Assembly (NCBI RefSeq): GCF_021730435.1
Contig: NZ_JABWGX010000001.1
Coordinates: forward strand, 124,001-188,000
Reading direction: 5' to 3'
DNA length: 64,000 nt
From: Xanthobacter agilis
Lineage (GTDB): Bacteria; Pseudomonadota; Alphaproteobacteria; Rhizobiales; Xanthobacteraceae
Below are positions 45,670 through 61,643 of the stretch, one piece after another. The position numbers and the translations under genes were made by a program. The notes under the pieces were generated by a model. The model did no database searches. It saw only the letters and a list, made by a program, of their open reading frames with translations, and had not been told where the DNA came from. Position 1 is the stretch's first letter, and every line of letters starts with the position of its first letter.

Positions 45670-45704
45670 GACCGTCACCGGGCGAACGCCGCCCGGTGAC
45701 GGTC
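45670..45704 (-). terminator. Terminator hairpin at the enamidase 3' end
   Basis: GACCGTCACCGGGC (45670-45683) pairs with GCCCGGTGACGGTC (45691-45704), a 14-bp stem with a 7-base loop that overlaps the enamidase stop codon. Together with 45621-45650 it separates two convergent genes. Confidence 0.6.
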
Positions 45705-46899
45705 ATTTCACGATGGTGGGCACGCGGGTGGCCGGGGGGGTGTTGCGCGAACGCTCGGTGCGCACGAGGCCATCGATGATGGTCATGCCGATGCCCGGCA
45801 GGTCGCCGAGCTGGACGCTCTCCAGCAGGGTCTTGCCGGCGGAGTGCTGGGCCGTGTCCATGATGACGAAATCGGCGCTGCGCCCCACCTCGATCAGTCC
45901 GCAGTCGAGCCCGCGCATGCGCGCCGTGTTGCCGGTGGCGAGGCAAAAGGCCTGCTCAGCCGGCAGCTCACCCATGGACGACAACAGCGCGACCATGCGC
46001 AGAATGCCCAGCGGCTGCACGCCGGAGCCGGCCGGGCCGTCGGTGCCGAGAATGACGCGGTTCAGCTCGCCCATCTCCCGCGCGGTGCGCAGGGTGAACA
46101 GGGCGGAGCGCTCGTTGCCGTTGTGGACCAGCTCCAGGCCCCGCTTGCAACCTTCGCAGATGCAGCGGATCTGGCCATCGGGAAGGGCGGTGTGGCCGCC
46201 GTTGATGTGGCCGACCACGTCGGCGTCGGTCTCCAGCACCACGTCCTTGTCGATGAGCCCGGATCCGGCGATGGAGGGGCCGCCAGTGTGAATGGTGGAC
46301 TGGATGCCGTATTTGCGGGCCCAGTTCACCATCTTGTTGGCGGTGGGGCCATCCTTCACGCCGCCGAGGCCGATCTCGCCCAGGAGTTTCACGCCCGCCG
46401 CCGCGAGCTCCTTGAAGTCGTTCTCCTCCATCTCGTGCTCGATGACGGGGGCGCCCGCATGGAGCTTCACGCCACCGGGGCGAAAGGCGGAAAAGGTGCG
46501 CTGGGCGGTGATGGCGAGCGCCTTGATGCCGATGACGTCGCGCGGGCGGCCGGGATAATGCACCTCGCCCGCCGAGATCATGGTGGTGACGCCGCCATGC
46601 AGCGACGAATCGATCCAGTTCATCTGGCTCTGGCGCGGGGTCCAGTCGCCGGCGACGGGGTGGACATGGCTGTCGATGAGCCCCGGCGTCACGGTCGCGC
46701 CATTGGCGTCGATGGTGGTCGTGGCGCCCTCGGTGTCCGCGTCCTTCAGCCGGCCGATGGCGCTGATGCGTCCGTTCTCGGCGACGATGGTGTCGGCATC
46801 GAGGATCGGCCGGTCGAGGTCGCCGCTGATGATGAGGCCGATGTTGCGGATGACGAGCTTGGTGTGGCCCTTGGGGCCGGCTGGGGCGTCGTGTGCCAT
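45703..46899 (-). CDS. ena: Enamidase (6-oxo-1,4,5,6-tetrahydronicotinate hydrolase), amidohydrolase family
   Basis: Metal-dependent amidohydrolase of 398 residues. TPGLIDSHVHP supplies the first metal-binding His pair (about 72-82), LLGEIGLGG and TIHTGG follow, then DADVVGHINGG and the catalytic Asp in LGTDGPAGSGV. The overall sequence matches enamidase of Eubacterium barkeri, which opens 1,4,5,6-tetrahydro-6-oxonicotinate to 2-formylglutarate and ammonia. The ATG at 46899 has GGAG nine bases upstream. It is transcribed alone behind its own operator-like element and is the ring-opening step following the reductase encoded 6 kb away. Other amidohydrolase substrates cannot be excluded by sequence alone. 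Confidence 0.85.
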   Translation of the reverse strand: MAHDAPAGPKGHTKLVIRNIGLIISGDLDRPILDADTIVAENGRISAIGRLKDADTEGATTTIDANGATVTPGLIDSHVHPVAGDWTPRQSQMNWIDSSLHGGVTTMISAGEVHYPGRPRDVIGIKALAITAQRTFSAFRPGGVKLHAGAPVIEHEMEENDFKELAAAGVKLLGEIGLGGVKDGPTANKMVNWARKYGIQSTIHTGGPSIAGSGLIDKDVVLETDADVVGHINGGHTALPDGQIRCICEGCKRGLELVHNGNERSALFTLRTAREMGELNRVILGTDGPAGSGVQPLGILRMVALLSSMGELPAEQAFCLATGNTARMRGLDCGLIEVGRSADFVIMDTAQHSAGKTLLESVQLGDLPGIGMTIIDGLVRTERSRNTPPATRVPTIVK

Positions 46900-46950
46900 G
46901 CCTTCAATCTCCGGAAGCAATGAGCCGGAGAGGCGAGGTCGACCCCGGCC

Positions 46951-46972
46951 GTTTATTTGTAGGCATATAAAT
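46951..46972. promoter_or_regulatory. Nicotinate-type operator candidate upstream of enamidase
   Basis: GTTTATTTGTA (46951-46961) matches 9 of 11 positions of the left half-site; the right half GGCATATAAAT matches 6 of 11. It lies about 52 bases upstream of the enamidase start in the only AT-rich part of the region. Confidence 0.5.
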
Positions 46973-46981
46973 TCTAGGCCG

Positions 46982-47019
46982 CCCCGAAGCGGTTGAAAAC
47001 CGCCTCGGGGGAATTTTTT
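46982..47019. terminator. Terminator-like hairpin between ferredoxin reductase and enamidase genes
   Basis: An interrupted stem, CCCCGA-A-GCGGTT with a GAAA loop and ACCGC-C-TCGGGG, next to a run of six T on the plus strand. On the minus strand it directly follows the ferredoxin reductase stop, so it probably ends that transcript although the T-run is on the other side. Confidence 0.55.
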
Positions 47020-47792
47020 CAGCGCTCGGCGAAGGCCTTCTCCAGCACGAAGTCGCCGGCCTCGCCATGGTTGCCTTCGACGAAATCGAGGGCGGTCAGG
47101 CGGTTCTTGAGGTCCACCATCATCTGCGGCGAGCCGCACAGCATCACCCGGTCGCGGGCCTTGTCGAGGGGGGGCAGGCCGATGTCGGCAAAGAGCTTGC
47201 CGCTCTCCATGAGGGTGGTGATGCGGCCCTGGTTGCGGAACGGCTCGCGGGTGACGGTGGGATAATAGACCAGCTTGACCTTCGCCTCCTCACCCAGAAA
47301 CTCATGGGCCTGGAGCGCCGCGACCATCTCTTCGCCGTACGCGAGCTCGGACACCTGCCGGCAGCCGTGGATCAGCACGATCTTTTCGAACCGGTCATAG
47401 GTCTGTGGGTCGCGGATGATGGAGAGGAAAGGCGCAAGCCCGGTGCCGGTGCCCAGCAGGTAGAGGTTCGCGCCGGGGTTGAGGTTGTCGATGACGAGGG
47501 TGCCGGTGGCCTTGCGGCCGATGATGATGGGGTCGCCCGCCTTCAGGTGCTGGAGGCGGGAGGTGAGGGGGCCGTCGGGCACCTTGATGGAATAGAATTC
47601 CAGGGTTTCCTCATAGTTCGGGCTCACCACCGAATAGGCGCGCATCAGCGGGCGACCCTCCACCTTGATGCCGATCATGGTGAATTCGCCGTTGCGGAAG
47701 CGGAAGCCGGCGTCGCGGCTGGTGGTGAAGCTGAACAGGCGGTCGGTCCAGTGGCGCACGTTGAGCACGCGCTCTTCCATCAGGTTGCTCAA
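47019..47792 (-). CDS. fpr: Ferredoxin-NADP reductase
   Basis: FAD enzyme moving electrons between NADPH and ferredoxin, 257 residues. FAD-binding RAYSVVSPNY (about 57-66), the flavin domain end GRKATGTLV, NADP-binding GTGTGLAPFLSIIRDP, TVTREPFRNQGRITTLM, and CGSPQMM near the C-terminus. I choose the TTG start at 47792 because GGAG lies seven bases upstream; the ATG at 47780 would shorten the N-terminus by four residues. Directly downstream of the ferredoxin gene (38-base gap) on the same strand. It probably supplies reduced ferredoxin to 6-hydroxynicotinate reductase. Confidence 0.93.
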   Translation of the reverse strand: MSNLMEERVLNVRHWTDRLFSFTTSRDAGFRFRNGEFTMIGIKVEGRPLMRAYSVVSPNYEETLEFYSIKVPDGPLTSRLQHLKAGDPIIIGRKATGTLVIDNLNPGANLYLLGTGTGLAPFLSIIRDPQTYDRFEKIVLIHGCRQVSELAYGEEMVAALQAHEFLGEEAKVKLVYYPTVTREPFRNQGRITTLMESGKLFADIGLPPLDKARDRVMLCGSPQMMVDLKNRLTALDFVEGNHGEAGDFVLEKAFAER

Positions 47793-47830
47793 GGCAGGGC
47801 TCCGGAGGTTCGGGAATGGGGGAGGGGGTG

Positions 47831-48160
47831 TCAGGCCGCGGGGGCGGACGAGAGCAGGTCGCGCTTGCCATCCTTGCCGTTCCAGGCGTCGGCATCGGCG
47901 GGCGGGTCGATCTTCTCGGTGATGTTGGGCCATTGCGCCGCATATTCGGCGTTGAGCGCGGCCCAGTTCGCGGCACGCGGATCGGAATCGGGCATGATGG
48001 CGCCGGCCGGGCACTCGGGCTCGCAGACGCCGCAGTCGATGCATTCGTCGGGGTGGATCACCAGCATGTTCTCGCCGGCATAAAAGCAGTCCACCGGGCA
48101 CACGGCCACGCAGTCCGTGTATTTGCAGCGGATGCAGTTCTCGGTCACCACATAGGCCAT
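47831..48160 (-). CDS. fdxA: 7Fe ferredoxin FdxA
   Basis: Electron carrier of 109 residues. The N-terminal [18 protein letters not shown] and [13 protein letters not shown] segments carry the cysteine pattern of [3Fe-4S][4Fe-4S] ferredoxins, followed by the usual 50-residue C-terminal extension. It starts at the ATG at 48160, downstream of a strong copy of the nicotinate-type operator. Co-transcribed with the ferredoxin-NADP reductase. 6-Hydroxynicotinate reductase is ferredoxin-dependent in the known pathway, so this ferredoxin is its likely donor. Confidence 0.94.
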
Positions 48161-48192
48161 GGCAGGCTCGCTCTCACCGCCGCGCGCAGCGG

Positions 48193-48214
48193 CATTTTGT
48201 TTGTGTACAAATGA
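48193..48214. promoter_or_regulatory. Nicotinate-type operator upstream of fdxA
   Basis: Left half TTTTGTTTGTG (48193-48203) matches 8 of 11 positions of TTTCATTTGTA; right half TACAAATGAAA (48204-48214) is identical to that before nicA. It stands 33 bases from the fdxA start codon. Confidence 0.65.
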
Positions 48215-48332
48215 AATAGAGCGCAGGCGGACCCCTGTCAACGCGGGGAAAGGCTGCGCGATGCAGACATTTCAGGCATCGGTGCCGGGAGTTTGGGCAG
48301 GGGCGACGCGTGCCGCCCGCGCGCCGCTGTCG

Positions 48333-51300
48333 TCAGTGGGTGCCCGGAGTGGCGCGCAGGCGGGCCACCGCCGCCTCGACGCCGCTCCAGGCGGGGGCCT
48401 GCGGCGCGAAGGTGCCGCGCAGGTAGCGCACCAGGGCCGCCACCTGCCCGTCGTCCAGGCTGTCGCGGAAGGCGGGCATGTCGCCGAGATCACGGGCGGC
48501 GGGGTTCGGGATGCCGTCCAGGATGACGCGGATGAGATTGTCCGGCCGCGCGGCGTGGACATTGGTGTTGAGCGCCAGTGCCGGGCGCACGCCGAACAGG
48601 GTCGGGCCGTCATCCGCGTGACAGGCGGCGCAGGCGCCCTCATAGAGCTTGCCGCCGAGCGAATCGAGCGGGCGCAGGGCGGTGGTCGCCGCGGCCTGGA
48701 GCGTGGCGGCGCGTGCGGCGGGCTCGGCCTGGGCCGGCGGCGCGAATGATGCCAGATAGGTCGCCATGGCGCGGATGTCGGCGTCGGGCAAAGCGGACAA
48801 TTCCTCTACCACCGGCGCCATGGGGCCGGCGGCGGTGCCGTGGAAGCGCGAAAATCCCGTGCGCAGGTAGGAGAACAATTCCTCTTCCGTCCAGGGAATG
48901 GGGGCCATGGACAAGGTGTTGAGGGCGGGGGCCTCCCAGCCATCCACCATGCCGCCACCGAGATAGGCGGCGCCCGCCTTCTCGGCACCCAGGGCGTTGC
49001 GCGGCGTGTGGCAGGCGCCGCAATGGCCGAGGCTTTCCACCAGATAGGCCCCGCGATTGAATTGGGGCGTGCGCGCCGGGTCGGCCTCGATCTGTCCGGG
49101 GCGCAGGAACAAGCTGTTCCAGCCGGCCATGAGCGGGCGGATGTTGAACGGGAAGCTCATGTTCGCTTTGGGCGTCGGCGCCACCACCGGCGCTTGCGAC
49201 ATCAGGAAGGCGTAGAGGGCCTGGAGGTCGGTGTCGGAGGTCCGGGTGAAGGAAGTGTAGGGAAAAGCGGGGTAGAGGTGGTGCCCGTCGCGCGAGATGC
49301 CTTCGCGCATGGCGCGCTCGAACGCGGCGTAGGACCAGCGGCCGATGCCGGTTTCCGGGTCGGGCGTGAGGTTGGTGGAATAGACCGTGCCGAAGGGCGT
49401 CTCCATGGGCCGCCCGCCGGTGTTCACGGCCCCGCCGGGCCCGGTGTGGCATACGGCGCAATCGCCAAGGGCCGCGAGCTGGCGCCCGCGGGCGATCATG
49501 TCGGCGGAGAAGGACGAGGGGTCCGGTGGCGTGATGGGGGCGATGGCGCCCCGGATGGGCAGGGCCACCGCCGCCATGCCCAGCGCGCCCGCCAGCGCCG
49601 CGCCGGCCAGAGCGAACCAGGAACGGGTCTTCGGCGGTGGCGGCGCGTCTTCCTGCGGCAACGGGTTGCCGAGCGCCGCGCGCACCCGCTCGGGGGTGAA
49701 GGGCGGTTCGCGCAGGCGCACGCCGGTGGCGTCGAAGATGGCGTTGGCGATGGCGGCGGCCGAGGGGACAGAGGCCGATTCGCCCGAGCCCAAGGGCGGA
49801 TCATCGGGGCGCGGCATCAGCACCACGTTGATGACCGGCACCTCGGGGAAGGTGAGGATGGGGTAGGCGCCCCATTCCTTGTCGGCGACGGCGGTGTCGG
49901 TGAAGCTCACCTCTTCCTTCAGCACGCGGCTGGTGGATTGGATGACGTTGCCGTGGATCTGGTGCTCGATGCCGGCCGGGTTGATCATGAGCCCGGAATC
50001 CTGGCCCACCACCACCCGCTTCACGGCCACGTCGCCGGTGGCGGTGTTCACCTCCACCTCGGCCACCCAGGCCGACCAGGCGGCGCCGTAGCCGGGGAAC
50101 TTGGAATGCACATAAAGGGCATAGGCGAAGCCCTGCCCGCGCACCACGTCGCCCTCCACCGCCTCGCGGCGCGGGCCGGTGCGATGCACCCAGCCGGCGC
50201 GGGCCGCAACTTCCTTGACGAGGTCCACCGCGCGCGGGTCGTGGAGATAGCGCAGGCGGTACTCCACTGGATCGACGCCGGCGGCGGCCGCCAGTTCGTC
50301 GATATAGCTTTCGTGGGCGAAGGAATTGGGCAAGGCTGAGACGCCGCGCAGCCACGCGGCCCGCACGATAGGCGCCATGTCGAGGGCCTGAACGCGGATG
50401 TTGTCGTAGGCGTAGGGCGGAATGGCCGTGCGGTCGCCCATCTGGAACACGGGATTGTCGGCCGGCACCCGTCCGGTCAGCAGCAGCGCCAGGGTGGTGG
50501 CGGCGTTGGAGGGATAGCGGGTCGAGAAATCATACGCGGCCGGGGTGCCGTCCGCATTGAGGCCGCCGGAAACCTCCATGAGCTGGGCCGAGCCCTTGGG
50601 CTCCCAGGCGTGTTCCTGCTCGCGGGTCAGTTGGACCCGCACCGGGCGGCCCACGGCGCGGGAGAGCAATGCGGCGTCGGCGGCCACGTCGTCGGCGCAG
50701 TTGCGGCCATAGCAGCCCGCCGCCTCGAACCGCAGCACCTCGATCCGCTCTTCCGGAATGCCGAGCAGGACCGAGATGTCGAGCCGCAGCGGATAGGGGT
50801 TCTGCGTGCCCGACCAGATGGTGGCGCCACCGTCGCGGACATCGGCGACGGCGCAGGAGGGGCCGATGGAGCCGTGCATCTGGTAGGGCCACACATAGGT
50901 GCGGTCCATGGGTACGGCGGCATGGGCGCGGGCGGTCGCCACATCGCCCTTGTCGAGCAGCAGGCGGGGCGTGCTCGGATTGGCGCGCAGGGCTTTTGCG
51001 ATATCGCCGAGATCGGGCAGCGGCGGGGGCGCGGTCCACTCCACCTTCAGGGCCAGGGCGGCGGCCGCCGCCTGCTCCTCGCGCTCGGCCACCACGCCGA
51101 CGAAGTCGCCCATGGTGACCACCGCCACCACGCCGGGAATGTGGGCGACGGAGGCCTCGTCCACGGCGATGAGGCTCTTGCCGATGAAGTCGCCGGCATC
51201 CACGCCGGCATAAGGCGGGCGCACCACGCGACCGTGCAGCATGCCGGGCACGCGCACATCGTGGACATAGGTGAAGGCGCCGGTGGCCTTGGCGGGAATA

Positions 51301-51908
51301 TCCACGCGCGGCATGCGCTGGCCGACGATGCGATGCTCCGATGCCGGTTTCACCGCCACGCGCTCGGCTAGCATCAGGCGGTCCCGGCGCCCCTCCAGCA
51401 ATGCGGCGTAGGAGCGGCTTACGTTGCCCCCGGCGCGCGGGTGCACCACGCCGTCGGTGACGGTGAGGTCGGCGGCCGGCAGTTCCAGCGCCGCCGCCGC
51501 GAGGGACACAAGATGGTGCCGGGCTTGGGCCGCGGCATGGCGCAGCGGAATCGCCGACATCTGGATGCTGTCGCTGGCGATGGTGGCGCCCTGGTTGGGC
51601 GTGCCGGAGGTGTGGCCGAGCACCATGGTGACGGCCGACAACGGCACATCCAGTTCTTCCGCCACGATCTGCGCCAAGGCCGTGCGGATGCCGGTGCCGA
51701 GATCCACATGGCCGTTGAAGGCCAGGATCCGCCCACCGTCGTCCAGGAACAGGAACAGGTCGAGGGCGCCATCGGGCGGCGGTGCGGTGGGCACCAGCCC
51801 CTTCACATGCTGCGCCGGCCGCAGCACCGCCAGGGTGCCGGCGCGCGCGAGCAGGTCGGCCGGGGAGGGGGTCGGCTCGCTGACCGGGTCGCTCAGGTGT
51901 TCAGTCAT
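48333..51908 (-). CDS. nicB: Nicotinate dehydrogenase large subunit: molybdopterin domain fused to tri-haem cytochrome c
   Basis: Hydroxylates nicotinate to 6-hydroxynicotinate together with NicA, passing electrons to c-type haems. The 1191-residue protein has an N-terminal molybdenum-binding part (about 1-770) with GHVDLGTGIRTALAQIVAEEL, QGATIASDSIQ, RAAWLRGVSALPNSFAHESYIDELA and PLGSGESASVPSAAAIANAI. A single hydrophobic segment follows (about 770-795), then a cytochrome c region with CAVCH (817), CGACH (963) and CAACH (1093). The size and fusion match NicB of Pseudomonas putida. It overlaps nicA by 8 bases. The hydrophobic segment suggests a membrane-anchored enzyme with periplasmic haems. 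Isoquinoline or quinoline-type substrates are the alternative. Confidence 0.9.
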   Translation of the reverse strand: MTEHLSDPVSEPTPSPADLLARAGTLAVLRPAQHVKGLVPTAPPPDGALDLFLFLDDGGRILAFNGHVDLGTGIRTALAQIVAEELDVPLSAVTMVLGHTSGTPNQGATIASDSIQMSAIPLRHAAAQARHHLVSLAAAALELPAADLTVTDGVVHPRAGGNVSRSYAALLEGRRDRLMLAERVAVKPASEHRIVGQRMPRVDIPAKATGAFTYVHDVRVPGMLHGRVVRPPYAGVDAGDFIGKSLIAVDEASVAHIPGVVAVVTMGDFVGVVAEREEQAAAAALALKVEWTAPPPLPDLGDIAKALRANPSTPRLLLDKGDVATARAHAAVPMDRTYVWPYQMHGSIGPSCAVADVRDGGATIWSGTQNPYPLRLDISVLLGIPEERIEVLRFEAAGCYGRNCADDVAADAALLSRAVGRPVRVQLTREQEHAWEPKGSAQLMEVSGGLNADGTPAAYDFSTRYPSNAATTLALLLTGRVPADNPVFQMGDRTAIPPYAYDNIRVQALDMAPIVRAAWLRGVSALPNSFAHESYIDELAAAAGVDPVEYRLRYLHDPRAVDLVKEVAARAGWVHRTGPRREAVEGDVVRGQGFAYALYVHSKFPGYGAAWSAWVAEVEVNTATGDVAVKRVVVGQDSGLMINPAGIEHQIHGNVIQSTSRVLKEEVSFTDTAVADKEWGAYPILTFPEVPVINVVLMPRPDDPPLGSGESASVPSAAAIANAIFDATGVRLREPPFTPERVRAALGNPLPQEDAPPPPKTRSWFALAGAALAGALGMAAVALPIRGAIAPITPPDPSSFSADMIARGRQLAALGDCAVCHTGPGGAVNTGGRPMETPFGTVYSTNLTPDPETGIGRWSYAAFERAMREGISRDGHHLYPAFPYTSFTRTSDTDLQALYAFLMSQAPVVAPTPKANMSFPFNIRPLMAGWNSLFLRPGQIEADPARTPQFNRGAYLVESLGHCGACHTPRNALGAEKAGAAYLGGGMVDGWEAPALNTLSMAPIPWTEEELFSYLRTGFSRFHGTAAGPMAPVVEELSALPDADIRAMATYLASFAPPAQAEPAARAATLQAAATTALRPLDSLGGKLYEGACAACHADDGPTLFGVRPALALNTNVHAARPDNLIRVILDGIPNPAARDLGDMPAFRDSLDDGQVAALVRYLRGTFAPQAPAWSGVEAAVARLRATPGTH

Positions 51909-52470
51909 GGGGCTGGCTCTCCGGACGCTCACCTGCATCGCGCTCGCCCGAAGCGGTCGGCGCGCCCTCCGGCGAATCGCTGGCAGCCCCGCCAAACGCT
52001 TCGGCGGCGGACATCACGGCGCGCAGGATTTCCACATGGGTGCCGCAGCGGCAGAGATTGTAGCGCAGGGCGTGGCGGACCTGTTCGAGGGTGGGGGCGG
52101 GGTGGCGCAAAAGGAAGGCGGTGGCGGTCATGATCATGCCGTTCAGGCAATAGCCGCACTGGGCCGCCTGGGCGGCGATGAAGGCCGCCTGCACCGGGTG
52201 CGGGCTCTCCCGCGTGCCGAGCCCCTCAAGGGTGGTGACGGCGCGATTTTCCGCGGTTTTCAGGGTGGTCACGCAGGCGCGGGCCGCCACCCCGTCGATG
52301 AGCACGGTGCAGGCCCCGCACTCCCCGAGGCCGCAGCCGAACTTGGGGCCGTTGAGCTGAAGGTCGTTGCGCAGCACATAGATGAGCTTGGTGTCACGCG
52401 GCAGGTCGAAGCTGTACGCGATGCCGTTCACCGTCAGCTGAACCGGGCCATCATTGGCATGTCTGGGCAT
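51901..52470 (-). CDS. nicA: Nicotinate dehydrogenase small [2Fe-2S] subunit
   Basis: Iron-sulfur subunit of the molybdenum hydroxylase, about 189 residues. A plant-type [2Fe-2S] site GCGLGECGACTVLIDG (about 45-60) and the second cluster in QCGYCLNGMIM and LCRCGTHVEILRA. It lacks the C-terminal FAD domain, consistent with electron flow to the cytochrome c part of NicB. I use the ATG at 52470; a GTG three codons upstream (52479) has a better-spaced GGAG and is possible. The C-terminus is Ser/Pro/Glu-rich and overlaps nicB. Confidence 0.92.
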   Translation of the reverse strand: MPRHANDGPVQLTVNGIAYSFDLPRDTKLIYVLRNDLQLNGPKFGCGLGECGACTVLIDGVAARACVTTLKTAENRAVTTLEGLGTRESPHPVQAAFIAAQAAQCGYCLNGMIMTATAFLLRHPAPTLEQVRHALRYNLCRCGTHVEILRAVMSAAEAFGGAASDSPEGAPTASGERDAGERPESQPHD

Positions 52471-52591: not shown

Positions 52592-52613
52592 GATTGTTTC
52601 TATACAAATGAAA
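52592..52613. promoter_or_regulatory. Nicotinate-type operator upstream of nicAB
   Basis: Right half TACAAATGAAA (52603-52613), identical to that before fdxA; left half GATTGTTTCTA matches 6 of 11. It lies 122-143 bases from the nicA start, in the divergent nicA-hnr region. Confidence 0.6.
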
Positions 52614-52694: not shown

Positions 52695-52716
52695 TTTCAT
52701 TAGTACACATATGAAC
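52695..52716. promoter_or_regulatory. Nicotinate-type operator upstream of 6-hydroxynicotinate reductase
   Basis: Left half TTTCATTAGTA (52695-52705) matches 10 of 11, right half CACATATGAAC (52706-52716) 8 of 11. The TTCAT/ATGAA outer arms form an inverted repeat. It is 67 bases upstream of the chosen reductase start and argues against a start at 52639, which would put it inside the coding sequence. Confidence 0.6.
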
Positions 52717-52782: not shown

Positions 52783-54279
52783 ATGGGTGACGAAGCGACC
52801 ACCGGCATGCGGCCGGCCGGCGACGAGAAGATCCGGTGCGATGCCTGTCCGGTCATGTGCTACATCAAGCCCGGCATGACAGGGGCCTGCGACCGTTATG
52901 CCAACCAGGCCGGCGAGCTGATCCGCGTCGATCCCCATGTGGTGCTCGACCGCACGCTGGCGCAGGGTGGGCCGGTGGTGGCCTTCCATCGCGGCGGGGA
53001 TTGGGACGGCAAGCTGGTCTCGACCCCCGACACCTTCGTGACCGCCATCGGCGCCGGCACCACCTATCCCGATTACAAGCCCGCCCCCTTCATCGTCTCC
53101 TCGCAGGTGGACGGGGTGGACATGGTGACTGTCGTCACCGAAGGCATCTTCAGCTATTGCGGCGTGAAGGTGAAGATCGACACTGATCGGTTCCTCGGGC
53201 CAGAGCAAGCCACCGTGCGCGCGGCGGGCGAGGCGGTGGGCCATGTGACCACCTCCGAATATGGCTCGCAGATGCTGTCCCTGGGCGGGGTCCATCATCT
53301 CACTGGCGGCGGCAAGAAGGAAGGCCGCGTAACCTGCGAGGCGCTGCTCGACCTGTGCAACGGCAAGCCGGTGGAGCTGACCATCGACGGCGGGGCGACG
53401 GTGCTGGTGGAGGCCGGCAAGGCGCCGATCGTCAATGGCGCCCTGGAAGAGCGGATGCGGGTCGGCTGCGGCTCCGCCACCATCGGCATGTTCGCCAAGC
53501 AATGGTTCGATAAGGCCGACGAGGTGGTGGTGGTGGACGACCACATCACCGGCGTCCTGTCGGAGCATCAGGCGGGCAAGCTGCTCGGCGTGCGCGAGAC
53601 CGGCATCAAGATGAAGGGTCGCCGCTCCACGCCCGGCCGTTACTTCCAGGTGGCCGCGCCCGGCACCGGCTGGGGCGGCACCGACATTTCCGATCCGCTG
53701 TCCATCATCGGTCCGTTCGATCCCAAGCTGGCCTGGCCGGGGCTGCGCCTGTTCTTCATTTCCACCACCGGCGAGCATGCCGCCTATTTCGAGCTCGACG
53801 AGACCCTGACCCCGGTGGAGAAGGCGCTGCCGCCGGAGCTTGCCGCCTCCACCCAGCGGGTGAAGGACAATTGCGAGCCGGCCCTGTCCACCGTGCTGTT
53901 CATGGCGGGTGCCGGCGGCTCCCTGCGGGCCGGCGTCACCGAAGACCCGGTGCGCCTCACCCGCTCGGTGAAGGATGCGCTGACCTATGTCACCTGCGGC
54001 GGCGCGCCGGTCTATGTGTATCCCGGCGGCGGCATCACCTTCATGGTGGATGTGACGCGGCTGCCCGAGAATGCGTTCGGCTATGTGCCGACGCCGGCCC
54101 TGGTGGCGCCCATCGAGTTCACCTTGCGCCTCGACGATTACCAGGCCCTCGGAGGCCATATGGCGGAGGTGCGGCCCCTGTCCTCGGTCAAGAGCGAGGA
54201 GGCGCTGAAGCCGGTCGCGCCCCTGTCCGACAATCCCTGGCCGCTGGCGCCCCAGGCGGCCAAGCGGTCGCACGGCTGA
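52783..54279 (+). CDS. hnr: 6-hydroxynicotinate reductase
   Basis: Iron-sulfur protein of 498 residues that reduces 6-hydroxynicotinate to 1,4,5,6-tetrahydro-6-oxonicotinate with ferredoxin, the key dearomatising step of reductive nicotinate breakdown. The N-terminus has a cysteine motif C-x2-C-x3-C-x9-C (CDACPVMCYIKPGMTGACD, about residues 21-39) fit for a [4Fe-4S] cluster; the rest is unique to the family, with ITGVLSEHQAGK and GGGITFMVDVTRLPENAFG in the second half. Start at ATG 52783, after the operator-like repeat. It is divergent from nicAB. Family assignment is by recognition of the Hnr sequence type. Confidence 0.85.
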   Translation: MGDEATTGMRPAGDEKIRCDACPVMCYIKPGMTGACDRYANQAGELIRVDPHVVLDRTLAQGGPVVAFHRGGDWDGKLVSTPDTFVTAIGAGTTYPDYKPAPFIVSSQVDGVDMVTVVTEGIFSYCGVKVKIDTDRFLGPEQATVRAAGEAVGHVTTSEYGSQMLSLGGVHHLTGGGKKEGRVTCEALLDLCNGKPVELTIDGGATVLVEAGKAPIVNGALEERMRVGCGSATIGMFAKQWFDKADEVVVVDDHITGVLSEHQAGKLLGVRETGIKMKGRRSTPGRYFQVAAPGTGWGGTDISDPLSIIGPFDPKLAWPGLRLFFISTTGEHAAYFELDETLTPVEKALPPELAASTQRVKDNCEPALSTVLFMAGAGGSLRAGVTEDPVRLTRSVKDALTYVTCGGAPVYVYPGGGITFMVDVTRLPENAFGYVPTPALVAPIEFTLRLDDYQALGGHMAEVRPLSSVKSEEALKPVAPLSDNPWPLAPQAAKRSHG

Positions 54280-54282: not shown

Positions 54283-55227
54283 ATGGCCGCCCCGCGCCCC
54301 CTTCCCGATCTCGCGCGCCGCGCGCCGCAGGTGGCCCTGCTGCCCGACGGCCGCCGCCTGCACCTGCAGGACGGCCCCATCGATCTCGTCATCGAGGCGA
54401 TGGGGGAGGATGGGGCCGTGCAGCGAGCCTATGGGGCGGCGGCGGCGCGTTTCACGGGCCTGCTCTACGCCCTTTGCGAGGAGCTGGATGTCTTGCGGAT
54501 GCCGGCGGGTCGCCATGGGCCGGCGCTGACCCATCGGGTGGCGCAACGCATGGGCCGGGCGGTGGCGCCGTTCGCGGACGCCGTCTTCATCACCCCCATG
54601 GCCGCTGTCGCCGGCGCGGTGGCGGAAGAGGTGCTCGAGGCCCTGATCGCGCCGGGCGTCCACCGCGCCTATGTGAACAACGGCGGCGATATCGCGCTGT
54701 ACCTAGCGGCCGGCGCGCGGTTCGCGGTGGGGCTGGTGGACCGGCCCGACCAGCCGCGCCTGATCGGCGCGGCGGAGGTCGATGCCGACGACCCCGTGCG
54801 CGGCGTGGCGACCAGCGGCTGGCGCGGGCGCAGCTTCTCCCTCGGCATCGCCGATGCCGTGACCATCCTCGCCCCCACCGCGGCCATGGCCGACGCGGCG
54901 GCCACCGTGGTGGCCAATGCGGTGGATCTGCCGGGGCATCCCGGCGTGGTGCGCGTGTCCGCCTGCCAGATGCAGCCGGACAGCGACCTTGGCACCCTCC
55001 CGGTGACGCGGGCGGTTCCCGAACTGACCGCCGCCGAGCGGGCGCAGGCGCTGACCGCCGGTCTGGCGGTGGCGCGCGATCTTTCGGCACGCGGTCTCAT
55101 CTGCGCCGCGGCCTTGCACCTGCAAGGCGAAACCATGAGCACCGGAGATGGTCTTCTGTCTCTCCCGCCGCATGCGGCGGCGGTTCCACTTCCCTCAAAG
55201 CCAGAAAAAGAGTGCGCCCATGCCTGA
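54283..55227 (+). CDS. UPF0280 (ApbE-like fold) family protein
   Basis: A 314-residue cytosolic protein of the UPF0280 family, whose structures resemble the ApbE flavin-transferase fold. Recognisable segments are FVITPMAAVAGAVAEEVLEAL-like VFITPMAAVAGAVAEE, RAYVNNGGDIALYL, GVATSGWRGRSFSLGIADAVTI and DLPGHPGVVRVSACQMQPDSDLG. It starts 3 bases after the reductase stop, so the two are tightly coupled. A role in flavin loading of the reductase, which is a flavoenzyme in Eubacterium, is attractive but untested; I saw no flavinylation motif in the reductase. Confidence 0.82.
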   Translation: MAAPRPLPDLARRAPQVALLPDGRRLHLQDGPIDLVIEAMGEDGAVQRAYGAAAARFTGLLYALCEELDVLRMPAGRHGPALTHRVAQRMGRAVAPFADAVFITPMAAVAGAVAEEVLEALIAPGVHRAYVNNGGDIALYLAAGARFAVGLVDRPDQPRLIGAAEVDADDPVRGVATSGWRGRSFSLGIADAVTILAPTAAMADAAATVVANAVDLPGHPGVVRVSACQMQPDSDLGTLPVTRAVPELTAAERAQALTAGLAVARDLSARGLICAAALHLQGETMSTGDGLLSLPPHAAAVPLPSKPEKECAHA

Positions 55228-55804
55228 GGTGAAAGTTCGCAAGAAGATTCTGATGATCGAGGAGATTTTCCACGAGGGCGGGCCCGTGGCCGCCACTCCG
55301 CGCAAGCGCGGGGCGATCATCAACGTGATCGAGAACCCGTTTGCCGGGCGCTATGTGGAAGACATCGCCGGCTTCATGGATGATTTGACGCCGCTTGGCG
55401 TGGCCATGGCGGCGGAGCTGCTGAAGGCGCTGGGTGGCGATCCGGCCACCATCGACGGTTACGGCAAGGGCGCCATCGTCGGCGCCGCGGGCGAGCTGGA
55501 GCATGGGGCGCTGTGGCATGTGCCCGGCGGCTACGCCATGCGCGAGATCCTGGGCGATGCCAAGGCCATCGTGCCCTCCACCAAGAAGGTGGGCGGACCC
55601 GGCACGCGGCTTGATGTGCCGGTGACCCATGTGAACGCCTCGTATGTGAGAAGCCATTTCGACGCCATGGAAGTGGGCGTGCCCGACGGCCCCAAGGCCG
55701 ACGAGATCGTGCTGGTGCTGGTGATGACCAGCGGTCCGCGGGTCCATGCCCGCGTCGGCGGGCTCGCCGCGGCGGACATCAAGGGCGAGGACGGCCTGCG
55801 ATGA
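55220..55804 (+). CDS. DUF1185 (amino acid synthesis family) protein, copy 1
   Basis: A 194-residue protein overlapping the UPF0280 gene by 8 bases. Conserved features are KKILMIEEIFHEGG, INVIENPFAGRYVEDI, GYGKGAIVGAAGELEHGALWHVPGG, VNASYVRSHFDAMEVGVPD and the C-terminal ADIKGEDGLR. It is a paralogue of the next gene (near-identical ending). The family has known structures but no established reaction; despite the name there is little evidence for amino-acid synthesis. Its position between the reductase and transporter genes ties it to this pathway. Confidence 0.85.
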   Translation: MPEVKVRKKILMIEEIFHEGGPVAATPRKRGAIINVIENPFAGRYVEDIAGFMDDLTPLGVAMAAELLKALGGDPATIDGYGKGAIVGAAGELEHGALWHVPGGYAMREILGDAKAIVPSTKKVGGPGTRLDVPVTHVNASYVRSHFDAMEVGVPDGPKADEIVLVLVMTSGPRVHARVGGLAAADIKGEDGLR

Positions 55805-56385
55805 GCGCGAAGATCCGCAAGATCATCACGATCGTCGAAGAGACCCATATGGAGATGGGGCGCGCCATCTCCCCGCCCACCCGGCGGGCCGCGGTGGTGG
55901 CGGTGATCGAGAACCCGTTCGCGGGCCGCTATGTGGAAGATCTGTCCGAGCTCGTCGCCATCGGCGAGGAACTGGGTGGCCTGCTGGCGCAGAAGGCGGT
56001 GGACGCCCTCGGCATCGCCGGGCCGGCGGCCCAGAGCTACGGCAAGGCGGCCCTGGTGGGCGAGAATGGCGAGCTGGAGCATGCCGCCGCTTTGCTGCAT
56101 CCCAAGATGGGCACGCCGGTGCGCAAGGTGCTGGGCAAGGGCGCGGCGCTCATTCCCTCCTCCAAGCGACGCGGCGGGCTCGGCGCCGAGCTCGACATTC
56201 CGCTGGGGCATAAGGACGCGGCCTATGTGCGCAGCCATTTCGACGGCATGCAGGTGAGCGTGCCGGACGCGCCCCGCGCCAATGAGATCGTGGTGGCGGT
56301 GGCGGTGACGGACTCGGGGCGGCCGCTGCCGCGGGTGGGGGGCCTCACCACGGCCGACATCAAAGGCGAGGACGGGTTGCGCTAA
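55801..56385 (+). CDS. DUF1185 (amino acid synthesis family) protein, copy 2
   Basis: Same length (194 residues) and family as the preceding gene, with which it overlaps by four bases (ATGA). Shared features are AVIENPFAGRYVEDL, SYGKAALVGENGELEHAAALLHP, DAAYVRSHFDGMQVSVPDAPRANEIV and ADIKGEDGLR. The two probably form a heteromer or act on related substrates; tandem duplication followed by divergence is clear. Function unknown. Confidence 0.85.
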   Translation: MSAKIRKIITIVEETHMEMGRAISPPTRRAAVVAVIENPFAGRYVEDLSELVAIGEELGGLLAQKAVDALGIAGPAAQSYGKAALVGENGELEHAAALLHPKMGTPVRKVLGKGAALIPSSKRRGGLGAELDIPLGHKDAAYVRSHFDGMQVSVPDAPRANEIVVAVAVTDSGRPLPRVGGLTTADIKGEDGLR

Positions 56386-56452: not shown

Positions 56453-57646
56453 ATGAAACGGATGATGGGACTGGCGCTTGCCGCCCTGCTGATGGCTTCC
56501 GGCGCCGCGCGCGCCGAAGGCGAGATCAAGGTGGGCGAGATCAATTCGTATTCCGCCCTGCCGGGCTTCACCGATCCCTATCGCAAGGGCATGGAGCTGG
56601 CGCTGAAGGAGATCAACGATGCCGGTGGCATCAAGGGCAAAAAGCTCGTCATCATTTCCAAGGATGACGGCGGCAAGCCCGGCGATGCCTTGACCGCCGC
56701 CAACGAGCTGGTCTCGCGCGACGGCGTGGTGATGATCGCCGGTGGCTTCCTGTCCAATGTCGGGCTCGCGCTCTCCGACTTCGCCAAGCAGAAGAAGGTG
56801 ATGTATCTGGCGTCCGAGCCGCTCACCGACGCGCTCGTGTGGTCGAAGGGCAATCCGTACACCTTCCGCCTGCGCACCTCCAACTACATGCAGGCGGCCA
56901 TGCTGGCGGAAGAGGCGGCCAAGCTCCCCGCCAAGCGCTGGGCCACCATCGCCCCCAATTACGAGTTCGGCCAGTCGTTCGTCGCCGCGTTCAAGGACCT
57001 CCTGAAGAAGCGCCGTCCCGATGTGGAGTTCGTGGCCGAGCAGTGGCCGCCGCTGAACAAGATCGACGCCGGCCCCGTGCTCCAGGCCATCGACGCCGCC
57101 AATCCCGACGCCATCCTCAACGCCACCTTCGCCGGCGACCTCGTGAAGCTGGTGCGCGAGGGCAATACCCGTGGCGTGTTCAAGAACCGCGCGGTGGTGA
57201 GCTATCTCACCGGCGAGCCGGAATATCTCGACCCGCTGAAGGGTGAGACCCCCGAAGGCTGGATCGTCACCGGATACCCCTGGTATTCCATCGACACGCC
57301 CGAGCATAAGGCGTTCCTGGATGCCTACCAGCAGCTCAACAAGGACTATCCGCGGCTCGGCTCCATCGTCGGCTATTCCACGGTGAAGAGCATCGCGGCG
57401 GTGCTGAACGCCACCGACGACCACTCCAACGAGGGCCTCGTCAAGGCGATGAAGAACCTCAAGGTGTCCACCCCGTTCGGCGAGATCGTCTATCGCGGCG
57501 CCGACCACCAGTCGACGCTTGGCGCCTTCGTGGGCAAGACCGCGCTCAAGGACGGCAAGGGCATCATGGTGGACGTGGTCTTCAAGAAGGGCGCCGATTA
57601 CCTGCCCAGCGAGGACGATGCCGCCAAGATGCGCCCGGCGAACTGA
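56453..57646 (+). CDS. Liv-type ABC transporter substrate-binding protein
   Basis: Periplasmic binding protein of 397 residues, family of branched-chain amino acid receptors. N-terminal signal peptide (MKRMMGLALAALLMASGAARA, cleavage about residue 21), then GEIKVGEINSYSALPGFTDPYRKGMELALKEINDAGG, ELVSRDGVVMIAGGFLSN and YEFGQSFVAAFKDLLKKRRPDVEF. The pocket is not assignable by eye; nicotinate, 6-hydroxynicotinate or a related heterocyclic acid is the natural guess because the genes lie in the nicotinate cluster. ATG at 56453 chosen for the signal peptide. Confidence 0.9.
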   Translation: MKRMMGLALAALLMASGAARAEGEIKVGEINSYSALPGFTDPYRKGMELALKEINDAGGIKGKKLVIISKDDGGKPGDALTAANELVSRDGVVMIAGGFLSNVGLALSDFAKQKKVMYLASEPLTDALVWSKGNPYTFRLRTSNYMQAAMLAEEAAKLPAKRWATIAPNYEFGQSFVAAFKDLLKKRRPDVEFVAEQWPPLNKIDAGPVLQAIDAANPDAILNATFAGDLVKLVREGNTRGVFKNRAVVSYLTGEPEYLDPLKGETPEGWIVTGYPWYSIDTPEHKAFLDAYQQLNKDYPRLGSIVGYSTVKSIAAVLNATDDHSNEGLVKAMKNLKVSTPFGEIVYRGADHQSTLGAFVGKTALKDGKGIMVDVVFKKGADYLPSEDDAAKMRPAN

Positions 57647-57746: not shown

Positions 57747-59672
57747 GTGGACTTTCTCCTGATCCAGGCCCTGAGTGGACTGGCCAGCGCCGCATCCCTG
57801 TTTCTGGTGGCTTCCGGCCTGTCGATCATCTTCGGCGTCACGCGTATCGTGAATTTCGCCCACGGCGCCTTCTACATGCTCGGCGCCTATGTGGCCTTCA
57901 CCCTCACCGACCGCTTCGCCGGCCCGCTCGGCTTCTGGGGCGGGCTGCTGGTGGCGAGCCTGGTGGTGGCGGCGCTGGGCGCGCTGATGGAAATGGTGCT
58001 GCTGCGGCGCATCTATCAGGCGCCCGAGCTGTTCCAGCTCCTCGCCACCTTCGGCGTGACACTGATGGTGCAGGATCTGGTGGTGCTGATCTGGGGGCCT
58101 GATGACCTCATGGGCCCGCGCGCGCCCGGCCTCAGCGGCGCCTTCAGCCTGTTCGGCCGGCTCGTGCCCTCCTACGACATTCTGTTGATCCTGCTGGGGC
58201 CGGCGGTGCTGGGCCTGCTGTGGCTCCTGTTCCACCGCACCCGCTGGGGTGTGCTGGTGCGCGCCGCCACCCAGGATCGCGAGATGGTGGCCAGCCTGGG
58301 CGTGAACCAGAAGTGGCTATTCACCTCAGTGTTCGCCCTTGGCGTGTTCCTGGCCGCCCTCGGCGGCGCGCTACAGATCCCGCGCACCACCGTCACCCAT
58401 TACATGGACCTGTCCATCATTGTGGAAGTGTTCGTGGTGGTGGTCATCGGCGGGCTCGGCTCGGTCACGGGCGCCTTTATCGCCGCCGTGCTGGTGTCGG
58501 AATTGAACGCGTTCGGCATCCTGGTGCTGCCGAAGATCTCCATGATCACCGTGTTCCTGGTGATGGCGGTGGTGCTGGTGGTGCGGCCCTGGGGCCTGTT
58601 CGGCAAGCCCGATGCGGCGCCGCGCGCCAGCGCCGGCATCTCGGTGCGCCCCTGGAAGCCGATGTCGGTGCTGGAGCGCTCCGGGGTGGCGCTGGTGGTG
58701 CTGCTGGCGGCGCTGCTGCCGTTGGTTTCCGGCAGCTATGCGCTGAGTGTCGGGTCGGAAATCCTGGTGTTCGTGCTGTTTGCCGCGAGCCTGCACTTCA
58801 TGATGACGGTGGGCGGCCTCTCCTCCTTCGGCCACGCGGCCTATTTCGGGCTTGGCGCCTATGGGGCGGCGTTCGCCGTCACCTATTTCGGCGCGCCCAT
58901 GGAGGCGGCGCTGCTGCTCGGTCCGCTGCTGGGCCTTGCGGGGGCGGTGCTGTTCGGCTGGTTCTGCGTGCGGCTCTCGGGCGTCTATTTCGCCATGCTC
59001 ACCCTCGCCTTCGCCCAGATCACCTGGTCGGTGGCGTTCCAATGGGTGGAGGTGACGGGCGGCGACAACGGCATCCTCGGCATCTGGCCGTCGGCCTGGG
59101 CGTCGACCCCGCAAGGTTTCTACTGGCTCACCCTGGCGGTGGTGGTGGTGGGCGTCGCGCTGCTGCGGATGCTGGTGTTCTCGCCGTTCGGCTTCGGTCT
59201 GCGGGCGGCGCGCGACAGCGCCCTGCGCGCGGAGGCCATCGGCATCGACGGCAAGCGCACCCAGTGGGCCGCCTTCATGGTGGCGGGCACCTTCGCCGGC
59301 ATTGCCGGGGCCCTGTTCGCCTTCCTGAAGGGCAGCGTGTTTCCGGAAACCCTGGCCATCCCCATGTCGGTGGACGGCCTCGTCATGGTGCTGCTCGGCG
59401 GTATCGAGACGGTGTCGGGCGCGGTGGTGGGCGCGGTGGTCTACAAGGCGCTCGCCATCTGGCTGATGAGCCAGACCGAGCTGTCGAAGCTGGTGCTCGG
59501 CGGCATCATCGTGCTGCTGGTGGTGGCCTTCCCGAAAGGCATCGTCGGCTTCCTGGAGGACTGGCGCCATCGCCGGCCCCCGGCGCCGAACGGGGCCGGA
59601 CCCAAGGCCGCCGGCAAGGCGGCCACCGAGGCGGCGCCTGTCGGCATCGCAAAGCTGGAGGCGGCCCGATGA
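57747..59672 (+). CDS. Fused Liv-type permease (LivH-LivM)
   Basis: A 641-residue double permease combining the LivH-type half (about 1-290; VASGLSIIFGVTRIVNFAHGAFYMLGAY, IGGLGSVTGAFIAAVL) and LivM-type half (about 310-620; GGLSSFGHAAYFGLGAYGAAF, GALFAFLKGSVFPETLAIPMSVDGLVMVLLGGI). The two are usually separate genes, so this is a natural fusion. It starts with GTG at 57747 after GGCGGAG and ends in a short Ala/Pro-rich tail. Its stop overlaps the ATPase start by four bases. Confidence 0.93.
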   Translation: MDFLLIQALSGLASAASLFLVASGLSIIFGVTRIVNFAHGAFYMLGAYVAFTLTDRFAGPLGFWGGLLVASLVVAALGALMEMVLLRRIYQAPELFQLLATFGVTLMVQDLVVLIWGPDDLMGPRAPGLSGAFSLFGRLVPSYDILLILLGPAVLGLLWLLFHRTRWGVLVRAATQDREMVASLGVNQKWLFTSVFALGVFLAALGGALQIPRTTVTHYMDLSIIVEVFVVVVIGGLGSVTGAFIAAVLVSELNAFGILVLPKISMITVFLVMAVVLVVRPWGLFGKPDAAPRASAGISVRPWKPMSVLERSGVALVVLLAALLPLVSGSYALSVGSEILVFVLFAASLHFMMTVGGLSSFGHAAYFGLGAYGAAFAVTYFGAPMEAALLLGPLLGLAGAVLFGWFCVRLSGVYFAMLTLAFAQITWSVAFQWVEVTGGDNGILGIWPSAWASTPQGFYWLTLAVVVVGVALLRMLVFSPFGFGLRAARDSALRAEAIGIDGKRTQWAAFMVAGTFAGIAGALFAFLKGSVFPETLAIPMSVDGLVMVLLGGIETVSGAVVGAVVYKALAIWLMSQTELSKLVLGGIIVLLVVAFPKGIVGFLEDWRHRRPPAPNGAGPKAAGKAATEAAPVGIAKLEAAR

Positions 59673-60451
59673 ACGCGCTGCTTGAAGTGAAGGGGCTGGT
59701 GAAGTCCTATTCCGGGGTCCATGCCGTGCGCGGCGTGTCGTTCTCGCTCCAGGCGGGCGAGATTCTGGCGCTCATCGGCCCCAATGGCGCCGGCAAGAGC
59801 ACCTGCTTCAACATGCTGAATGGGCAGATCCGCCCCAATGCGGGCTCCATCCGGCTCAACGGCGAGGAAATGGTGGGCCTGCCACCGCGCACGGTGTGGC
59901 GTCGCGGCGTGGGGCGGACCTTCCAGATCACCGCCACCTTCTCCTCCATGACGGTGCGGGAGAATGTGCAGGTGGCGCTCCTGTCCTATCACCGCCGGCT
60001 GTGGTCGGTGCTGGGTTATGCGGGCGCGGCCCATCGGGAGGAGGCCGACGACCTCCTGACCCTGGTGGGCATGGACCAGCAGGCGGAACGACCCTGCGGG
60101 GAGCTGGCCTATGGCGACCTGAAACGGCTCGAACTGGCGGTGGCGCTGGCCAACCAGCCGCGCCTGCTGCTGATGGACGAGCCCACTGCCGGCATGGCGC
60201 CCAAGGAGCGGGTGGAGCTGATGCGCCTCACCGCCGCCATCGCCCGCAAGAAGGACATGGGCGTGCTCTTCACCGAGCACGACATGGATGTGGTGTTCGA
60301 GCATGCCGACGCGGTGATGGTGCTGAACCGGGGCGAGTTGATCGCCCGCGGCTCGCCGCAGGAGGTGCGCCGCGATCCCCATGTGCAGGCCATCTATCTG
60401 GGCGAGGGCCTGCTCTACGATGCCAAGCACCGCGAGGAGGCCGTGCAATGA
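59669..60451 (+). CDS. Liv-type ABC transporter ATPase (LivG-like)
   Basis: ATP-binding subunit, 260 residues. Walker A GPNGAGKST, LivG-specific GVGRTFQITATFSSMTVRENVQVAL, signature-region CGELAYGDLKRLELAVALA, Walker B LLLMDEPTAGM and TEHDMDVVF. The signature begins LAYGDLKR instead of LSGGQ, as is normal in LivG. Starts at ATG 59669, overlapping the permease stop, and its own stop overlaps the next start. Confidence 0.94.
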   Translation: MNALLEVKGLVKSYSGVHAVRGVSFSLQAGEILALIGPNGAGKSTCFNMLNGQIRPNAGSIRLNGEEMVGLPPRTVWRRGVGRTFQITATFSSMTVRENVQVALLSYHRRLWSVLGYAGAAHREEADDLLTLVGMDQQAERPCGELAYGDLKRLELAVALANQPRLLLMDEPTAGMAPKERVELMRLTAAIARKKDMGVLFTEHDMDVVFEHADAVMVLNRGELIARGSPQEVRRDPHVQAIYLGEGLLYDAKHREEAVQ

Positions 60452-61152
60452 AGCTCGAAGTCTCGGGGCTCAACAGCTTCTACGGTCAGGCCCACATTCT
60501 GTTCGATGTGGCGTTCGAGGTCGGCGAGGGCGAGGTGGTGGCCCTGCTCGGCCGCAACGGCGCCGGCAAGAGCACCAGCTTCCGCTCGGTGGCGGGCCTC
60601 GTGCCCCAGCGCACCGGCAAGGTGGTGTTCGAGGGCGAGGACGTCTCGCGCCTGCCGCCTTACGAGATCGCGCGGCGCGGCCTGGGCTATGTGCCGGAAG
60701 ACCGGCGCATCTTCACCGAGCTGACGGTGGAGGAGAATTTCGAGGTGGGCCGGCAAGAGCCGCGCCCCGGCGTCGCCACCTGGACGCCGGAGCGCATCTA
60801 CAAGCTGTTCCCCAACCTCGGCGAGATGCGCAAGCGGGCCGGCGGCCACATGAGCGGCGGCGAGCAGCAGATGCTCACCATCGGCCGCACCCTCATGGGC
60901 AATCCGTCCCTGGTGCTGCTCGACGAGCCGTCCGAGGGCCTCGCGCCCAAGATCGTGGAGCAGATGGCGGAAGCCATCATGACCATGAAGCGGGAAGGGC
61001 TCAGCATCATCATCTCGGAGCAGAACCTGCATTTTGCAAAGCTGATCTCCGACCGCGCCTATATTATCGAGAAGGGTCGGATCCGATTCTCCGGGACCAT
61101 GGGCGAGCTGGAGGCCAATCCCGAGATCCGGGATGCGTACTTGGCAGTATGA
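60448..61152 (+). CDS. Liv-type ABC transporter ATPase (LivF-like)
   Basis: Second ATP-binding subunit, 234 residues. Walker A GRNGAGKST, LGYVPEDRRIFTELTVEEN, signature MSGGEQQMLTIGRTLMGNP, Walker B LVLLDEPSEGLAP and switch region ISEQNLHF. Forms the heterodimeric ATPase with the upstream protein. Overlaps neighbours by four bases on each side, so the transporter genes and the following MarR gene are one transcript. Confidence 0.94.
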   Translation: MKLEVSGLNSFYGQAHILFDVAFEVGEGEVVALLGRNGAGKSTSFRSVAGLVPQRTGKVVFEGEDVSRLPPYEIARRGLGYVPEDRRIFTELTVEENFEVGRQEPRPGVATWTPERIYKLFPNLGEMRKRAGGHMSGGEQQMLTIGRTLMGNPSLVLLDEPSEGLAPKIVEQMAEAIMTMKREGLSIIISEQNLHFAKLISDRAYIIEKGRIRFSGTMGELEANPEIRDAYLAV

Positions 61153-61643
61153 GCACACAGGACGGGGGAGCGGGACGGGTGAGCGCGAAGCCAGCTTCCG
61201 GGACCCGGCGCCGACGCACCAAGGCGCCGGCGCCCGCTTACATCCTTGAGACCCAGGCCGGCTTCATGCTGCGGCAGGTGATGCAGCGGCACACCACCAT
61301 CTTTGCCGCCCGCATGGGGGAGGAACTGACCGCGACCCAATGGGCCGCGCTGTCCAAGCTGTTCGAGAACGGGCCTTGCTCGCAGAACCTGCTGGGGCGG
61401 CTGACGGCGATGGACGCCGCCACCATCAAGGGCGTGGTGGATCGCCTCGTGAAGCGCAGCCTGGTGGAAACCTGCCCCGATCCGGAGGACGGACGGCGCC
61501 TCGTGGTGGCGCTCACGGGGGAGGGCGCCGCACTGGTGGAGCGTTGCATCCCCATCGCCCACACCATCACGGATGAAACCCTCGCGCCGCTCGATGCACA
61601 GGAGCGGGCGACCTTCCTGGCGCTGCTGGACCGCTTGAAATAG
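61149..61643 (+). CDS. MarR family regulator, NicR-like candidate
   Basis: A 164-residue winged-helix repressor. After a basic disordered N-terminus (about 1-30), YILETQAGFMLRQVMQRHTTIF begins the dimer helix, and the HTH/wing are in LLGRLTAMDAATIKGVVDRLVKRSLVETCPDPEDGRRLVVALTGEG (about 78-122) with the MarR Asp-Arg-Arg signature. It is the last gene of the reductase-to-transporter operon (ATGA overlap). In P. putida, the MarR protein NicR senses 6-hydroxynicotinate; this protein is the only regulator in the island and the obvious candidate to bind the TACAAATGAAA palindromes. That link is inference. Confidence 0.88.
   Translation: MSTQDGGAGRVSAKPASGTRRRRTKAPAPAYILETQAGFMLRQVMQRHTTIFAARMGEELTATQWAALSKLFENGPCSQNLLGRLTAMDAATIKGVVDRLVKRSLVETCPDPEDGRRLVVALTGEGAALVERCIPIAHTITDETLAPLDAQERATFLALLDRLK

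Follow-up and report, generated by a model that had tools for sequence, protein, structure and literature searches.

The stretch of DNA considered here (the window; 64,000 nt of Xanthobacter agilis NZ_JABWGX010000001.1, within which positions are given) contains, at 45703-61643, 14 genes that very probably make up a regulon for nicotinate catabolism of the Azorhizobium type, in an aerobic alphaproteobacterium, judging by their predicted products and upstream sites. Each forms a single uninterrupted frame that runs from a start codon to a stop codon (Table 1). The minus-strand genes are those for enamidase (ena), a reductase, a ferredoxin, and the nicotinate hydroxylase subunits (nicB and nicA); the plus-strand genes are hnr (6-hydroxynicotinate reductase), a UPF0280 gene, two DUF1185 genes, those of a Liv-type transporter (a periplasmic binding protein, a permease in which LivH and LivM are fused, and two ATPases), and marR. 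This gene list and these limits had been proposed in an earlier note on the same DNA, and are borne out by the frames and by Pfam and NCBIfam matches.

Table 1. Genes and operator sites of the cluster (window positions) and of the outlying locus L184.
Feature	Position	Strand	Basis
ena, enamidase (opens the tetrahydro-oxonicotinate ring)	45703..46899	-	amidohydrolase Pfam; 2vun match 6.1e-112; frame checked
weak operator-like site 5' of ena	46952..46971	.	matrix score 22.4 (best reversed-control score 22.0)
FAD/NAD(P)-binding reductase, proposed donor to ferredoxin	47019..47780	-	PF00175 4.4e-13, PF00970 2.6e-5
ferredoxin (fdx), proposed donor to Hnr	47831..48160	-	Pfam Fer4 families, DUF3470 1.2e-19
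operator 5' of fdx	48196..48215	.	half-site search, window and genome
nicB, molybdopterin subunit fused to three-haem cytochrome c region	48333..51908	-	Pfam MoCoBD_1/2 and cytochrome c domains
nicA, [2Fe-2S] subunit	51901..52470	-	translation; matches in other Hnr loci
operator (one good half) 5' of nicA	52593..52612	.	half-site search, matrix scan
operator 5' of hnr, fits pattern in full	52696..52715	.	half-site search, window and genome
hnr, 6-hydroxynicotinate reductase	52783..54279	+	homologues 61-84%; eight invariant Cys
UPF0280/COG2122 protein with ApbE fold, proposed to mature Hnr	54283..55227	+	NF003322, co-occurrence, fold
DUF1185, first copy (a), closer to 3byq (BB2672)	55220..55804	+	Pfam; structure-sequence alignment
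DUF1185, second copy (b), closer to 2qtp (SPO0826)	55801..56385	+	Pfam; structure-sequence alignment
periplasmic binding protein (LivJ-like)	56453..57646	+	Pfam
fused LivH-LivM permease	57747..59672	+	Pfam / family search
LivG-like ATPase	59669..60451	+	Pfam / family search
LivF-like ATPase	60448..61152	+	Pfam / family search
MarR regulator	61149..61643	+	Pfam
aldehyde dehydrogenase	L184:2215-3729
GMC oxidoreductase	L184:3744-5378
operator	L184:5478-5497
ammonium transporter	L184:6088-7452

The enamidase aligns over its whole length with the characterised and structurally solved Eubacterium barkeri enamidase, 2vun (phmmer, residues 9-391 on chain positions 2-384), and the amidohydrolase motifs HxH, Glu, His, His, and Asp, which we take to be its metal ligands, align by eye. 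NicB is one protein with both molybdopterin and cytochrome c domains, its CxxCH motifs falling at residues 817, 963, and 1093; NicA was identified from its translation and from 35-44% matches in other Hnr loci. What had been called a ferredoxin-NADP reductase has NAD_binding_1 and FAD_binding_6 domains, a Pfam assignment at family level only. Hnr has no Pfam or NCBIfam match at 0.001. It is named by its context and, without direct comparison to the E. barkeri enzyme, by the published figure of 42% identity between E. barkeri Hnr and the homologue in strain SG-6C (PMC3511419). Its own homologues are 61-84% identical, with eight invariant Cys, compatible with iron-sulfur (Fe-S) clusters.

A hydroxylase, Hnr, an enamidase, and an ATP-binding cassette (ABC) transporter thus lie in one cluster, as the aerobic route through 1,4,5,6-tetrahydro-6-oxonicotinate (THON) in Azorhizobium-type clusters demands. 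The same cluster was described in 2012 from A. caulinodans ORS571 (AZC_2804-2790), Bradyrhizobium japonicum USDA110, Rhodopseudomonas, and strain SG-6C (PMC3511419), which credits the reductive route in an aerobe to Azorhizobium papers of 1989 and 1992; the THON route is also assigned to A. caulinodans in PMC9304392. At the level of that description, the two clusters are alike in the first three steps, the transporter, two conserved proteins of unknown function, the aerobic hosts, and the THON route. Among the best 80 of 588 relatives (hereafter the near loci), gene order is identical in Xanthobacter oligotrophicus (L087) and nearly so in Rhodopseudomonas (L084, L085). The closest Hnr proteins are from Rhodopseudomonas, Chelatococcus, and Xanthobacter. 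Given the published description and the conserved order, the X. agilis cluster adds one more example to an established type, and its reading as a novel island was rejected. The earlier note's view that such an organisation was undescribed therefore fails for the cluster, while holding for UPF0280 and DUF1185, which have no assigned function in the available part of the 2012 account. Its route to 2-formylglutarate is supported by the full-length E. barkeri-type enamidase, by the travelling together of the gene set in other genera, and by an operator common to the transcription units; its description of the host as apparently aerobic agrees with two COX1 genes in the genome.

The cluster shares with nicotinate fermentation in E. 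barkeri the Hnr and enamidase steps, and differs from it in the cytochrome-linked NicAB and in the carbon exit, expected here through glutarate; in E. barkeri carbon reportedly leaves via 2-(hydroxymethyl)glutarate. The nic pathway of Pseudomonas putida also has a NicAB-type hydroxylase with cytochromes and a MarR regulator, but ring opening here would be reductive and hydrolytic, and no NicC or NicX is seen in the cluster. None of NicC, NicD, NicE, NicF, or NicX turned up among the open reading frames scanned at 41.6-64 kb, a scan that included no search aimed at these genes.

There is evidence from site sequences that a palindromic operator, lying 5' of all three transcription units (fdx-reductase-ena, nicAB, and hnr-to-marR), ties these into one regulon. 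It was found by aligning the nicA-hnr gap with those of relatives; a repeat search for simple inverted repeats in this gap, in the window and in L084, gave none. Three copies of the 12-base half-site TTCATTNGTAYA lie in the window, one each 5' of fdx, nicA, and hnr, compared to no copies in 100 shuffles; the whole 4.81-Mb genome has four, and the reversed pattern is absent from it. The fourth copy (C11:231477-231496) precedes by 100 bases a gene for a GMC oxidoreductase, followed by one for an aldehyde dehydrogenase (neither reaching an NCBIfam equivalog cut-off). The same locus has a second site (26.4 bits), with an ammonium transporter gene starting 204 bases further on. Both would fit a pathway that releases ammonia and ends in an aldehyde, as seen in this one genome, and the aldehyde dehydrogenase has perhaps an even chance of supplying the missing semialdehyde step; the operator yields a regulon with a candidate for it. 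With a matrix built from the window sites and those of named relatives, sites of at least 22 bits were found in 22 of 43 sampled Hnr loci (9/11 with enamidase, 5/16 with the hydantoinase-type protein HyuA, 8/16 others) and in none of the reversed controls of these groups at that cut; over 2.2 Mb, the best reversed score is 22.0. A stricter pattern with at most two mismatches has matches in 9 of 10 relatives' genomes, each with one or two in the Hnr locus. This evidence for an operator regulon, and that given below for UPF0280 as a maturation factor of Hnr, are what is new here: the operator, its fourth site, and the UPF0280-Hnr link do not appear in the available part of the Azorhizobium account (PMC3511419).

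The proposed scheme takes its pathway from the literature; this analysis contributes the genes present, the homology of the enamidase, the operator sites, the co-occurrence of Hnr with UPF0280, and the ApbE fold of the latter. We infer the path of the electrons, the inducer, and what UPF0280, DUF1185, and the GMC-aldehyde dehydrogenase operon do. Nicotinate would be imported by the Liv-type transporter and hydroxylated by NicAB to 6-hydroxynicotinate, with electrons passing through the NicB cytochromes to respiration. NAD(P)H may supply Hnr with electrons by way of the reductase and ferredoxin, and Hnr would reduce the ring to THON, to be opened by enamidase to 2-formylglutarate and ammonia. 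DUF1185 may act at ring opening or just after. Carbon would go onward via glutarate semialdehyde and glutarate, the aldehyde step possibly being carried out by the GMC oxidoreductase-aldehyde dehydrogenase operon, 43 kb outside the window and preceded by the same operator. MarR would repress the units through TTCATTnGTAYACnnATGAA, the inducer probably being 6-hydroxynicotinate or a neighbour in the pathway. UPF0280, as a member of the ApbE fold that does not look exported, would most likely attach a covalent flavin to Hnr.

The step that opens the ring appears to have more than one solution. Eleven of the 43 sampled loci have enamidase, 16 have HyuA, of the ATP-dependent hydantoinase/oxoprolinase family, in its place (L047, L048, L050, L052, L055, L061, L063, L065, L067, L070-L072, L074, L075, L077, L078), and 16 have neither; HyuB is found in 13 (thus at most 13 of the HyuA loci), these HyuA and HyuB counts covering the fetched loci. 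In 289 genomes (44 with Hnr, 245 without), enamidase is found in 22 at 1e-50 and in 19 at 70% identity or above, 18 of these with Hnr (the exception is G082). None of the 16 Hyu genomes has one at 70%, though G104 has a 40% paralogue; the hypergeometric chance of this absence, with kinship ignored, is 1.3e-5. The simplest reading of these distributions is that HyuAB is a non-orthologous replacement for enamidase in one pathway, which predicts a second, ATP-dependent opening of a reduced pyridine ring. Among the papers listed in the literature search, mainly open-access ones, none reports HyuAB opening THON.

Alternatively, the Hyu-type loci might run a different pathway, for another lactam or substrate, with HyuAB no stand-in for enamidase. 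This has a sizeable chance of being right, if not quite an even one: the five Hnr genomes that lack DUF1185 all belong to the Hyu type, the operator is the rarer there (see above), and sign tests on independent pairs rest on three to five pairs, too few for significance. Against it, a tree of 42 Hnr shows 7 switches of the enamidase/Hyu label (6-7 in bootstraps, with supported branches requiring 3 or more), some of them separating sister loci, L066 from L071 for example; cytochrome-type NicB occurs together with HyuA and HyuB, and with no enamidase in the locus, in L159 (Agrobacterium sp.) and L160 (Rhizobium sp.), both among the near loci; and a HyuAB-type caprolactamase does open a lactam (PMC8453981).

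Both copies of DUF1185 (PF06684, AA_synth) reach the Pfam gathering score, at 1.2e-70 and 5.4e-75. Their GE(L/M)EH and RxGGL motifs align in 3byq and 2qtp, with cavity residues matched by eye; a conserved cavity Glu, His, and Arg have been described for the family (PMC2954203). DUF1185 is found in 57 of the 289 genomes (56 above cut-off). It occurs in 39 of the 44 with Hnr, in 18 of the 245 that lack Hnr, and in every one of the 19 whose enamidase reaches 70%. Copy a directly follows UPF0280 in 22 of the 43 sampled loci, and the near loci have two copies (36), one (37), or none (7). Our guess is that DUF1185 handles the ring-opened product, for example by decarboxylating 2-formylglutarate. That it is instead a transporter-linked binding or regulatory protein, with no part in ring opening or decarboxylation, is a possibility we would put only somewhat below even: the solved members adjoin branched-chain amino-acid transport genes (PMC2954203), and the Hnr-less genomes that have it also favour this. 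Its presence in every enamidase genome speaks for the ring-opening role, as do three genomes (G060, G202, and G210:C1) in which it lies away from Hnr but no more than roughly 0.1 kb from an enamidase paralogue (39-42% identity).

UPF0280 was assigned by NCBIfam NF003322 (4.4e-122, above cut-off). It is present in 44 of 44 Hnr-bearing genomes, with four weak matches among the other 245, and its structure model has the ApbE flavin-transferase fold. The E. barkeri counterpart of Hnr has a covalent flavin and Fe-S clusters. ApbE has an Asp-Ser-His triad and the target motif D-x-x-[S/T]-G-A-[S/T] (PMC12052999). In 40 aligned UPF0280 sequences, S178 and D204 are invariant (their correspondence to the triad was judged by eye), and the N-terminus has no obvious signal, again by eye. 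We see about equal chances for and against UPF0280 maturing Hnr as a flavin transferase, a role for which no report was met in the literature searched, mainly open-access. A wider and more tentative proposal, which we think somewhat more apt to fail than to hold, is that UPF0280/COG2122 forms a second class of flavin transferases, this one cytosolic, whose members each serve an adjoining reductase (here Hnr), attaching flavin at a new motif (perhaps DDHITG) by altered catalysis, and would act on COG1900 enzymes in homocysteine synthesis, and that an ATP-dependent HyuAB lactamase has repeatedly taken the place of enamidase within a single route.

Several observations count against the scheme. 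Flavin transfer is at odds with the lack of an invariant His among the 40 UPF0280 sequences, ApbE having a general-base His, and with the lack of the target motif in all 78 Hnr sequences, where only D-x-x-T-G, within an invariant DDHITG, occurs. COG2122 homology is also described as stopping short of the flavin-binding region of ApbE, with a persulfide role cited (PMC5764234). As to electron supply, the reductase is present in 31 of the 80 near loci, the ferredoxin in 5, and neither in the 43 sampled loci; electron supply therefore either differs between loci or is independent of the cluster. As to the regulon, the link to the GMC-aldehyde dehydrogenase genes is seen in one genome, other Hnr loci having only weak 32-42% matches, and the stricter operator pattern has matches outside the Hnr locus in 5 of the 10 genomes, all with two mismatches, and reversed-control matches in 3 of 10.

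UPF0280 might be no flavin transferase at all, and supply sulfur or persulfide or take part in assembling the Fe-S clusters in Hnr, in line with what has been suggested for relatives next to COG1900 proteins. This is possible, though we would lean away from it. COG2122 is required for homocysteine synthesis in Desulfovibrio vulgaris (PMC5764234), and COG2122 (MA1715) works with DUF39/COG1900 in that synthesis, for which sulfur trafficking has been proposed (PMC5764234, PMC12068725); the eight Cys of Hnr, together with the absent His and target motif, fit as well. The partner differs, being COG1900/DUF39 in D. vulgaris and methanogens and Hnr here, in which no Pfam match to COG1900/DUF39 was found; from ApbE, Ftp, and FmnB the protein differs in its missing His, its partner without the target motif, and its N-terminus. 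With the chemistry of COG2122 unsettled, a one-to-one pairing with a single assayable reductase makes either flavin transfer or sulfur delivery open to a clean decision here.

Finally, that the true substrate is another pyridine, such as a substituted nicotinate, with nicotinate incidental, seems very improbable: Hnr loci do vary widely in hydroxylase type and ring opener, and SG-6C channels 6-chloronicotinate into the same route (PMC3511419), but gene order here matches the nicotinate clusters of the relatives of Azorhizobium, and the enamidase is that of the nicotinate pathway.

Of the 80 near loci, 40 have the hydroxylase type found here, with its molybdopterin subunit fused to cytochromes. 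None of the 43 sampled loci does; 39 of them have a fused xanthine-dehydrogenase-type protein, accompanied in 37 by an FAD subunit. Genes resembling 2-oxoacid:ferredoxin oxidoreductase, perhaps another low-potential electron source for Hnr, lie near hnr in 4 of the 43 (L055, L061, L066, L071). No relative of Hnr has a solved structure; a weak match to the C-terminal barrel of glycine-cleavage T-protein is seen in 21 of 21 Hnr. Four loci from Acidobacteriota metagenome-assembled genomes (L109, L116, L118, L125), far from Alphaproteobacteria, hold Hnr-UPF0280-DUF1185 and enamidase, with binning errors possible. Enamidase paralogues of 39-43% occur in G060, G202, G210:C1, G104, G185, G279, and G210:C15, three of them adjoining a DUF1185 gene.

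Beside the cluster, a methyl-accepting chemotaxis protein gene (43766-45616) possibly encodes a receptor for the same compound, and an AMP-binding (acyl-CoA synthetase-like) gene (61718-63346), with 37-38% relatives in 3 of the 43 sampled loci, faces marR. Genes for tRNA-Arg (40330-40406) and tRNA-Pro (43259-43335) lie a few kb to the left, and one for a TIR-domain protein (L080:11138-11890) just beyond the right end of the window.

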